Assembly: GCA_028281235.1 (NCBI GenBank)
Contig: JANQKG010000010.1
Span: 62,001-126,000 of the forward strand
Direction of reading: 5' to 3'
Source of the DNA: Afifellaceae bacterium
GTDB taxonomy: Bacteria; Pseudomonadota; Alphaproteobacteria; Rhizobiales; Afifellaceae
Length of the DNA: 64,000 bases
The notes beneath the pieces are model-generated. The model worked only from the letters and a program-made list of their open reading frames with translations, made no database searches and was not told where the DNA came from. Positions 55,998 to 58,491 of the stretch are shown here, piece by piece. How positions within the stretch are numbered: the stretch's first letter is position 1; every line of letters begins with the position of its first letter. Made by a program: the position numbers and the translations under genes.

Positions 55998-56945
55998 TCA
56001 GCGGCCCGTCCAGCGCGGCATGCGAAACGGCAGCATCATCTTCACGATCGGCGATGCGAAGCGGCGACCGGAGAAGCTCTCATGCATGAAGCGCGCCGTT
56101 TCGCCCAAGATGTGCGTTTCAATGATTGAGCGATTGTAGAACGGGCTGTCCTCCAGTGTCCGCACGAGGACCGGTTTATGGCCGGCAGCGCAGGGCACGC
56201 CACGCGCCACGCCCCAGAACCCTGGCGTCATGCTCATGGAGTCCGGCGGCGTGAACCGTTCGTCGCTGCCCTCTGCACCAAAGCGCAGGCCAAGCCGCTG
56301 TCGCGATCCATCGCGGCGCTGGCTGTCATAGACGATCGCCGCGGAGCCGTCGGCAAGCCGTGCGCGCGCCCAATCCCAATGCACGAACCCGTCCTCAAGC
56401 GGCTCGGTTCCCCAATTGCTGTCGAAATAGCCGTGGCCGGACCACTGAAACCCGCTGGGCTCGGTGAAGGATGCTTGGATCCGCGCAAGCGGCGCGATCG
56501 GATACCAGATGTGACGATCACCGGTCCCGATCGCCGTGACGGCATCGGTGATGATCTCCGGCGTCAACCGCACGGTGCCGCGCAGCCGCCGCGGCAGCCA
56601 TTCGGCGGGCGGGCGCGGCACGGCGATCTCGTCGATTTTGATCGCAAGATTGTCGCCGTCCCATTCCATCGCGCTGTCGCCAATACGCACGAATCGCGGA
56701 CTGCGGCGGAGCGTACGTCTGCCGCGCTCCGTCATGGCCCAGCGATTGCCGCGCGGCGCGTAGAGCGCGACGTTCATCACCACATGGTTTTCAGGATCGC
56801 GCCGACCGGACCAGGCGTAATAGGGGGAGAAGACGGAGCCGACGAAGGCGATGATCGACAGGCCGAACTGCCCGCAATCGCTCAGGCCGTCGACATACCA
56901 CCAACGATAGCCGCCGGGCGGAACCGTGGCTTCGAAGTCCGGTCC
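55998..56945 (-). CDS. crtC: Carotenoid 1,2-hydratase CrtC (start uncertain)
   Basis: The region with CrtC similarity runs from about 56945 (GPDFEATVPPGGYRWWYVDG) to the stop and holds the conserved AFVGSVFSPYYAW, GTGDRHIWYPIAPLARI, GHGYFDSNWG and SIIETHILGETARFMHES. CrtC hydrates the ends of acyclic carotenoids on the way to spirilloxanthin. The frame has no ATG, GTG or TTG within 95 codons upstream of the conserved part; the first Met (57230) would overlap crtD by 349 bases and gives an unlikely Gly/Arg-rich leader, and a CTG lies at 57083. The coordinate given is the start of homology, not a start codon. Confidence 0.85.
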   Translation of the reverse strand, partial: GPDFEATVPPGGYRWWYVDGLSDCGQFGLSIIAFVGSVFSPYYAWSGRRDPENHVVMNVALYAPRGNRWAMTERGRRTLRRSPRFVRIGDSAMEWDGDNLAIKIDEIAVPRPPAEWLPRRLRGTVRLTPEIITDAVTAIGTGDRHIWYPIAPLARIQASFTEPSGFQWSGHGYFDSNWGTEPLEDGFVHWDWARARLADGSAAIVYDSQRRDGSRQRLGLRFGAEGSDERFTPPDSMSMTPGFWGVARGVPCAAGHKPVLVRTLEDSPFYNRSIIETHILGETARFMHESFSGRRFASPIVKMMLPFRMPRWTGR

Positions 56946-58441
56946 GCTATGAGCGCCGCCGCCGCCAGTCGGCCCGACATCGCCGCCATCGGCACGCCGG
57001 GGCCGGGGTGGACGCTGCCCCCCGCCAGGTAAAGGCCGGGCACCTTTGTCCGCGCTCCCGGTCGGCGGAACGTCGCCGCCCAGCCGTGTGAGGCCCGCCC
57101 GTAAAGCGCGCCGCCGGTGCCGGGATAGAGGCGGCTGAAATCGCCGGGCGTGGTCGCCACCGCGTCCATCCTCTCCGCGTCGAGCATCAGCCCGCAGCTT
57201 TTCAGTTGCGCGATGGTCTTCTCCATCCATTGCTTCGTCTCACCGGTTGAATAGCGCCTTTCGTCGCCGTCGGCGGGCGCGTTGATCAGGATCAGCAATC
57301 GTTCGCGGCCGTCGCTTGCAGCTTTGTGATTGAGACGGCCGGCATCGTCGCGGTCTTGCGCACAGACGTAGACCGTCGGCTTCTCCGGGGCCCGCCTGTC
57401 TTTGAATATGGCGTCGAACTCCGCAGGATAGTCGTCGGAGAAGAAGACATTGTGCCGGGTCAACGCCACCCCGCTCGTCCTCGCCACGGCCGACCAGGTC
57501 AGCGCCGAGAGTGAACGCTCAGGCGCCGGAACCTCGGAGACGCCGACATCGAGGCTGCCGAAACCGCCGGAAGCGAGCGCCGAGACGTCACCGCAATAGA
57601 TGACGGCATCTGCGTCGATGGTTTCGCCTGAGCTGAGCGTTACGCCACGAACACCTGACCCATCGCCAAGGATGTCCGCAACGTCCGCGCCGTAGCGCAT
57701 TTCGACCGCGCGTGCAGCGGCAAGATCGGCCAGCGCGCATGCCAAGGCGTGCATGCCGCCTTCGACCAGCCACACGCCGGCCTGCTCGACATGGGCGACC
57801 AGCATCAGCGTTGCCGGCGCGTCAAACGGCGACGAGCCGCAATAGGTCGCGTAGCGACCGAAGAGCTGCCGCAGGCGCGGATCGGAAAAATAGTCGCCGA
57901 GCGCCGCCCACAACGTGGAGAACGGCCTGAGCTGCGACATGCGATCGAAGCGCCATGGCCCGATCCGACGTGCGAGCGAGATCGGATTGGGCCGCTCCGC
58001 GGCAATAAACGTCGATTGCAACGTCTCAAACATTGCCGCGCTGTCGACGCAGAACCGCCGGTAGCCGTCGGCATTCTGCCGGTCTGAAAATGACTCAATA
58101 GCCTCAGCGCTTGCTTCGATATCGGCGAAAAGGTCGAGCGCTGCGCCGTCCGGCCAGAGATGGCGGGCGAGGCAGCTCGCACGGCTGAGTTGCACAAGAT
58201 CGTCGAGCCGAGCGCCGATCGGCGCCAGTAATGCGTCGAACACGTCGCGCATGGTGAAAACGGTCGGGCCGGAATCGATCGGCAGGCCGGCCACGCTGAT
58301 CTGCCTCACCTTACCGCCCGGCGCCTCGGCCTTGTCCAGGAGGACGATGTCGCCGCCGGCGGCGCTCAGAGCAATCGCGGCGCTGAGCCCCGCCATCCCG
58401 GCGCCGACAATGACGACCCGGCCATGCGCGGCCTCAATCAA
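56882..58441 (-). CDS. crtD: Methoxyneurosporene (hydroxyneurosporene) desaturase CrtD
   Basis: The 519-residue FAD-dependent desaturase/oxidase of the CrtI superfamily has an N-terminal VVIVGAGMAGLSAAIALSAA near residue 9, the GGKVRQI motif and C-terminal LYLAGGSVHPGPGVPMAAMSG. CrtD adds the 3,4-double bond after CrtC hydration and is required for spirilloxanthin or spheroidene. The only start codon available is TTG at 58441; an 11-codon mini-ORF with a good GGAGG overlaps it in a TTGA junction. Its end overlaps crtC. Confidence 0.92.
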   Translation of the reverse strand: MIEAAHGRVVIVGAGMAGLSAAIALSAAGGDIVLLDKAEAPGGKVRQISVAGLPIDSGPTVFTMRDVFDALLAPIGARLDDLVQLSRASCLARHLWPDGAALDLFADIEASAEAIESFSDRQNADGYRRFCVDSAAMFETLQSTFIAAERPNPISLARRIGPWRFDRMSQLRPFSTLWAALGDYFSDPRLRQLFGRYATYCGSSPFDAPATLMLVAHVEQAGVWLVEGGMHALACALADLAAARAVEMRYGADVADILGDGSGVRGVTLSSGETIDADAVIYCGDVSALASGGFGSLDVGVSEVPAPERSLSALTWSAVARTSGVALTRHNVFFSDDYPAEFDAIFKDRRAPEKPTVYVCAQDRDDAGRLNHKAASDGRERLLILINAPADGDERRYSTGETKQWMEKTIAQLKSCGLMLDAERMDAVATTPGDFSRLYPGTGGALYGRASHGWAATFRRPGARTKVPGLYLAGGSVHPGPGVPMAAMSGRLAAAALIADRTSKPRFRPAAIVGGMSTA

Positions 58442-58473
58442 GGCCGGATTTGCCCCGGCTGCCCCGGCCGCAT
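58438..58473 (-). other. Possible 11-residue leader ORF coupled to crtD
   Basis: On the minus strand, GGAGG (58484-58480) is followed after 6 bases by ATG (58473-58471) and an 11-residue frame, MRPGQPGQIRP, that ends in TGA (58440-58438), overlapping the crtD TTG by two bases. A second ATG two codons earlier is in frame. It could deliver ribosomes to the weak TTG start, or a frameshift in the data could have split the true crtD start. Confidence 0.35.
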
Positions 58474-58491
58474 TGACATCCTCCGAAAATA

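Follow-up and report, generated by a model that had tools for sequence, protein, structure and literature searches.

The carotenoid 1,2-hydratase gene crtC of the Afifellaceae genome described here is in all probability (roughly 0.92) translated from its own ATG at position 57230, located inside the gene crtD. Comparison with related loci supports this ATG, which is in the −1 frame of crtD and behind an internal Shine-Dalgarno (SD) sequence, with the two genes overlapping over 349 nt. All positions refer to the window, the 64,000-nucleotide stretch of DNA that was analysed.

Arrangement of crtD and crtC

The features of the region are collected in Table 1. The crtC frame, on the minus strand, has no stop codon from position 57239 until the one ending at 55998. 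The ATG at 57230 is followed by no further ATG, GTG or TTG in this frame until GTG 56783, which corresponds to residue 150 and lies well within the enzyme. The conserved core starts with the Phe of FEATVPPGGYRWWYVDG, encoded at 56936, 98 codons past the ATG. The end of crtD thus runs into codons of the CrtC core and the two genes are interlocked. The product of crtD matches the NCBIfam model NF045637 (E = 6.3e-197) with 654.9 bits, above the cut-off of 580. No second copy of crtC was found in the same genome, where the search at E 0.001 gave a single match.

Table 1. Features of the crtD-crtC region, in window coordinates
Feature	Position	Strand	Remarks
crtD (1-hydroxycarotenoid 3,4-desaturase)	56882..58441	(-)	first in-frame TTG to TGA 56884-56882; 5' end uncertain
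crtC (carotenoid 1,2-hydratase, predicted), 410 aa	55998..57230	(-)	from ATG 57230
crtC ATG start codon (proposed)	57228..57230	(-)	A at the wobble position of a CAA codon in crtD
SD-like GGTGAG	57239..57244	(-)	8 nt 5' of crtC ATG
Overlap of crtD end and crtC beginning, 349 nt	56882..57230	(-)	same strand, two frames
CrtC N-terminal extension, 98 codons	56937..57230	(-)	wholly within crtD; mostly disordered by prediction
CrtC conserved core (FEATVPPGGYRWWYVDG...), residues 99-410	56001..56936	(-)
Heptamer G GGG GGC, slippery-looking	57017..57023	(-)	crtD frame (LAGG codons); rejected as usual route to CrtC

The preliminary description of this DNA had placed the conserved N terminus of CrtC inside the end of crtD and in its −1 frame, and both statements agree with the present analysis: the core starts at 56936, ahead of the crtD stop codon, and the codons of crtC begin at the third bases of crtD codons. 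Its count of about 95 codons without ATG, GTG or TTG before the core is right within a few codons. The conclusion that crtC has no standard start codon does not stand, as 57230 is an ordinary ATG, conserved at one column of crtD among the relatives.

The 5' end of crtD differs from that of the sister locus (L021), in which an ATG in frame with crtD follows GGAGG. In the window, an SD sequence and an ATG like those of the sister are found at 58465-58480 (minus strand), followed by a one-base length difference, and this ATG is out of the crtD frame; the length difference makes TTG 58441 the first in-frame start of crtD. It is either a real variant or a sequencing slip.

Loci compared

Loci with a CrtC match were taken from the genome itself and 60 of its relatives (20 of these 61 with a match), from a scan of species genomes (the best 80 of 118 matches), from a sample of the class (26 of 385 genomes, this one among them) and from all 11 matching plasmid records. 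A locus was counted as overlapping if its crtD is shifted by one base relative to the crtC frame and terminates inside the CrtC core. Among the 135 of 137 loci with a CrtC match (L019 and L020 gave none in a later BLAST search and were left out), 110 overlap, 10 have a same-strand crtD without such an overlap (L067 and L097 being doubtful) and 15 have no crtD match. By record title, the overlap loci belong mainly to Alphaproteobacteria, with some from Beta- and Gammaproteobacteria.

Because some genomes occur twice, the tests use 84 overlap loci below 85% identity in the CrtC core. Redundant loci above that identity were left out, as were those too near to contig ends (L058, L059) and those with a crtD fragment too short for codon alignment (L024, L071). 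The probabilities given below overstate the independence of the loci, which are linked by common descent and by gene transfer. In a Sandarakinorhabdus MAG (L067), the crtD match ends early and in a different frame, immediately ahead of crtC, which may be due to an assembly slip; in a Thiodictyon plasmid (L103), a tandem pair annotated as crtD (1-592 and 729-2216) precedes crtC, with only the second member overlapping it.

Start codon of crtC

In the codon alignment of crtD, a single column carries the crtC start in almost all relatives, with ATG in 81 and GTG in two (L016, L096) of the 84 non-redundant overlap loci; the sole exception, L123, has ATA there and an ATG 11 columns later. Across all 110 overlap loci, ATG (106) or GTG (two) is found at accepted offsets, 86-110 codons before the core, and the remaining two loci are cut by contig ends. 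The length of the overlap varies between 304 and 391 nt, with a median of 349 nt (84 loci). The A of the start codon occupies the third position of a codon of crtD (CAA, CGA, GCA, ACA, AGA and others), mostly preceding a Cys or Trp codon. Such a wobble A is present at this column in 82 of the 84 loci, L123 included; in a set of 49 loci it was observed 47 times, compared to 9.7 expected from the codon usage of each individual gene. The five alignable crtD genes without overlap have no start codon at that column (CGC, GCC, CGG, GCC, GCT), although they constitute a small control of about three lineages, with L064, L088 and L089 only 37-40% identical to the window crtD and L083 having its crtC in another frame. 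Around the SD sequence and the ATG, the window and the sister locus do not differ over 71 nt. An ATG within 40 codons of the core is found in six of the 84 overlap loci, and GTG or TTG in 13 more, so that some of these may use a second start.

Shine-Dalgarno sequence

Upstream of the start column, the third codon is GAG in 66 of the 84 loci and the fourth ends in G in 69, which places a GGAG 8 nt ahead of the ATG. At these two positions, sequences that share a residue have a codon identity of 0.84-0.87, compared to an expected 0.45-0.51. Pairing predicted with a 16S rRNA tail that includes GAUCACC, complementary to GGTGA, is stronger than the mean of resampled sequences in 73 of 84 loci (Wilcoxon 3.5e-12). 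In the window, GGTGAG takes the place of the common GGAG and pairs with this tail in a different register; the duplex is predicted at −7.6 kcal/mol, with −5.7 as the mean after resampling, and pairing at least this strong occurs in 10.6% of the background windows taken from crtD genes. With a shorter 16S tail, the window sequence is weaker than the resampled mean (−3.6 and −4.4, respectively), and 63 of the 84 loci are stronger than their own median. Of the 84 loci, 12 lack all six SD motifs that were looked for.

Open frame and dual coding

Between start and core, the crtC frame contains no stop codon in any of 83 loci, whereas 102.1 would be expected from resampling. In 49 loci, this stretch has no stops in 4767 codons, compared to 173 in 12,250 codons when this frame is followed upstream from the start, with a stop located within the 12 codons preceding the start in 18 of the 49; the third frame of the same stretch has 125 stops. 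For the window alone, 37% of synonymous resamplings of crtD leave the crtC frame open, so that an open frame in a single gene is not improbable, but its conservation over the relatives, as judged from these counts, is beyond chance.

The constraint is also seen in crtD itself. Fourfold degenerate sites of crtD have changed at 178 of 956 positions (0.186) in the extension, compared to 1025 of 3281 (0.312) upstream, and at 4.4% under the core. The change is lower in the extension in 15 of 16 close pairs (p = 6e-5), with L007/L008 running counter to the trend. Originally there were 17 pairs, of which L005/L011 was removed as apparently the same genomes as L039/L044. The 16 are not fully independent, since L007 is identical to L035 and L043 and L046 are 97.4% alike; two of the pairs have an identical sequence in common, and omitting one or the other leaves 14 of 15 or 15 of 15 (p = 1.2e-4 or 6e-5). 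Compared to resampled sequences, the extension has more Gly, Asp and Ala and fewer Tyr, Cys, Trp and His, a bias indicating that something beyond the avoidance of stops acts on it. Both frames encode conserved families, as seen from the crtD score above its NCBIfam cut-off and from the conservation of the CrtC core in 61 sequences. By the shared start column, the reduced number of synonymous changes in crtD and the conservation of both families, crtD-crtC is a conserved co-directional overlap.

Proposed expression of crtC

Ribosomes on crtD and ribosomes on crtC would read the same bases in two frames. Initiation at crtC would be internal, rather than proceed by termination and reinitiation, with the crtD stop located about 346 nt downstream; a start at the crtD stop codon or within a few nucleotides of it, the arrangement expected for reinitiation, is not present (57230 for the start, 56884-56882 for the stop). 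Translation of crtD may assist that of crtC by keeping the start site unfolded. The product would consist of approximately 92-98 disordered residues rich in Gly, Arg, Ala, Pro and Asp, their sequence largely dictated by the C terminus of crtD, followed by the hydratase fold, and this tail could be mainly a passenger.

Alternative origins of CrtC

The most serious alternative, although a very improbable one, is programmed −1 frameshifting that joins CrtC to CrtD in a single fusion protein, with the G GGG GGC of the LAGG codons as one conceivable slip site. It was named in the title of the preliminary description, and the position of crtC in the −1 frame of crtD, with the heptamer of the window in the right frame, is in keeping with it. 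Heptamers of the type X XXY YYZ are denser from the start column on (93 in 9824 codons) than upstream (74 in 32,112), and at least one is present in 61 of the 84 loci when the count begins 30 columns ahead of the start. However, the LAGG column, the richest in heptamers, has one in only 36 loci and none in 48, and the sister reads C GGG GGC where the window has G GGG GGC, its other heptamers (GGGCCCG and CCCGGGC) being located six and seven codons further on. Such sites shift among loci and are an expected product of GC-rich Gly and Pro codons. In column 544 of the crtD codon alignment (57022-57020), 47 of the 84 overlap loci use GGG for the first Gly of LAGG and all five crtD genes without overlap use GGC, although dual coding would account for this preference equally well, since GGG places Gly rather than Arg in the CrtC frame. 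Frameshifting would also leave unexplained the conserved ATG, the SD sequence and a frame free of stops from about 70 codons upstream of the heptamer, and a shift at LAGG would presumably leave the fusion without the HPGPG segment of CrtD. Programmed −1 frameshifting was thus rejected as the usual route to CrtC, as the zero-frame slippery heptamer is not conserved; a low level of frameshifting may occur.

Slightly less probable still is a start of CrtC near the core, at a non-standard codon (CTG, ATC, etc.) or at one of the late annotated starts. The N-terminal residues are dispensable in vitro according to the parts of PMC4717167 that were available, the start calls in RefSeq adjoin the core or fall inside it, and in lineages without the overlap, 24 of 25 loci have ATG or GTG no more than 40 codons from the core, the remaining one (L097) being cut by a contig end. 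In 65 of the 84 overlap loci, however, no ATG, GTG or TTG is found in the 40 codons preceding the core, and the conserved upstream ATG and SD sequence would have no explanation. The rare near start considered in the preliminary description finds no candidate in the window, where the crtC frame has no CTG or ATT/ATC/ATA after residue 50 until residue 116 (that is, none at residues 51-115), the next such codons, from CTG 56885 on, being located within the first strand of the fold or past it.

A sequencing or assembly error in the window, suggested by the draft state of the genome (62 contigs) and by the one-base difference from the sister near the 5' end of crtD, can hardly be entertained as the reason for a missing start, and for the overlap itself it is ruled out by the relatives, since the same arrangement is found in the sister and in 110 of the 135 CrtC loci (not all independent genomes), including complete plasmids.

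The far-upstream ATG at 57230, also listed in the preliminary description, is in turn favored by the comparison of the overlap in close relatives that had been proposed there: the start and the SD-like sequence are conserved at positions synonymous in crtD, and the frame that follows is free of stops.

The CrtC protein and its extension

In the AlphaFold2 model, calculated with 61 aligned long CrtC sequences, almost every position of residues 1-92 has a pLDDT below 50, and 279 residues reach 90 or more. The predicted fold starts near residues 93-100, with residues 108-117 forming the first strand. A Foldseek search matched it to 2ich (putative AttH, E = 2.5e-12), and it also resembles the pericyclases Fsa2, Phm7 and CghA, as well as kievitone hydratase. 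Residues His240, Trp242, Tyr268 and Asp270 are invariant in the 61 sequences and correspond by motif, without an alignment including RgCrtC, to His239, Trp241, Tyr266 and Asp268, shown to be essential in the Rubrivivax gelatinosus enzyme (RgCrtC) by mutants described in the consulted parts of PMC4717167. Gly107, Tyr108, Trp110, Tyr112 and Asp114 are also invariant in this alignment, whereas the same portion of PMC4717167 reports no conserved residues within 1-125; short database entries in the sequence set of that work may account for the mismatch.

The crtC product scores 288.6 bits with NCBIfam NF045922 (carotenoid 1,2-hydratase equivalog), below the cut-off of 400, and this model is narrow, since only one of the 26 matching genomes of the class sample passes it. 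On the basis of its sequence, the protein is placed in the CrtC family, not in the NF045922 equivalog, and its role as a hydratase is predicted. The match to the NCBIfam CrtC model begins 27 residues into the core, and no Pfam family was found for the crtC frame at E 0.001.

Counted from ATG 57230, Trp110, Ser132, Val133 and Phe134 of the window CrtC have the same numbers as the residues of RgCrtC named in the available part of PMC12402844, with later residues off by one or two; the coincidence indicates N-terminal parts of equal length in the two proteins. According to the text of PMC4717167 at hand, recombinant RgCrtC and the Thiocapsa roseopersicina enzyme (TrCrtC) were obtained as 44-kDa proteins, TrCrtC was cleaved between Ser57 and Ser58, and variants lacking the first 45 or 57 residues were still active and better expressed. 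The 44-kDa size gives indirect support to translation of both frames. A membrane anchor is described as misfolded in the model of PMC12402844. The extension is poorly conserved as a protein and lineages without the overlap manage without it; conservation of the frame is thus no proof that the tail is used. The crtC frame of one locus (L108) encodes a protein of 643 residues, and the other 81 long CrtC proteins listed have 387-421.

Evolution of the overlap

A quick tree, unrooted and made with no outgroup and no bootstrap, from which L067 and L097 were omitted (broken crtD frame and contig end), places 23 rows without the overlap scattered among 84 rows with it, requiring nine changes, at least two of which are forced by starred branches. 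Lineages without the overlap include Roseomonas-like and Luminiphilus-like bacteria, Woeseiaceae, Methyloversatilis, a pair of Burkholderiales and others. On this unrooted tree, the scatter of the sequences suggests repeated loss of the overlap, and we infer from it that the interlocked state is probably old and has been undone several times. To undo it, the stop codon of crtD would have to move back and a start and an SD sequence would have to arise anew, all together. We can speculate further, although we regard it as rather unlikely, that this old interlocked overlap has been kept by selection across phototrophic Proteobacteria, that it is among the longest conserved same-strand, out-of-frame overlaps of bacteria, and that its dual-coded disordered tail has a role of its own, in turnover, localisation or the CrtC:CrtD ratio, instead of being a passenger.

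Annotated starts of CrtC

In all ten annotated plasmid records (L102-L106, L133-L137; the eleventh has no annotation at crtC), the RefSeq start of CrtC misses the conserved ATG, which is present 97 or 98 codons upstream of the core in each of them. Relative to the first core residue, the annotated starts are located at −1, +2, +17 (five records), +23, +28 and +48 codons. Nine of the ten are thus inside the core, and the eight at +17 codons or more would drop the residue called Trp110 in Rubrivivax. Deposited CrtC sequences, family models and constructs based on such starts may therefore lack part of the fold.

Comparison with known systems

The CrtC proteins of R. gelatinosus and T. roseopersicina (PMC4717167, PMC12402844) belong to the same enzyme family, and in these, according to the parts of the two papers that were available, the N-terminal part is dispensable for activity. 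Those parts make no mention of its being encoded inside crtD, and the word "overlap" does not occur in the available text of PMC4717167. No description of a crtD-crtC overlap was found in the literature consulted, including the accessible portions of PMC4717167, PMC10604819, PMC4331045 and PMC5989583, although the original papers on Rubrivivax crtD and crtC might hold an earlier remark. The long form of CrtC was thus already known, and what appears new, with no earlier report found in these partial sources, is the conserved coding of its tail inside crtD.

Long overlaps on the same strand tend to be treated as annotation errors. In the consulted part of a survey of 338 genomes, none of 715 co-directional overlaps of at least 60 nt was real, and a rule for flagging them was proposed (PMC2478687). 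The crtD-crtC pair, which occurs in organisms that include culturable phototrophs, is a counter-example with strong comparative support. The holD/rimI overlap of Enterobacteria, described in the same source, is likewise real, conserved and co-directional, with two frames in use, but is at most 56 nt long, compared to 304-391 nt for crtD-crtC. Consecutive same-strand genes are also linked by ATGA or TGATG start-stop overlaps with termination-reinitiation, as seen in the available parts of PMC6728339 and PMC10666635, but these comprise only a few nucleotides, and with the crtC start about 346 nt before the crtD stop, reinitiation after termination of crtD is an unlikely route. Two same-strand proteins are encoded out of frame over a long stretch in the nested rnpA/rpmH genes of Thermus as well, where, according to the accessible text of PMC9841429, the starts are at one shared site and one gene is fully nested in the other. 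The crtC gene differs from these in having its own putative SD sequence deep in crtD, with only the ends of the two genes overlapping.
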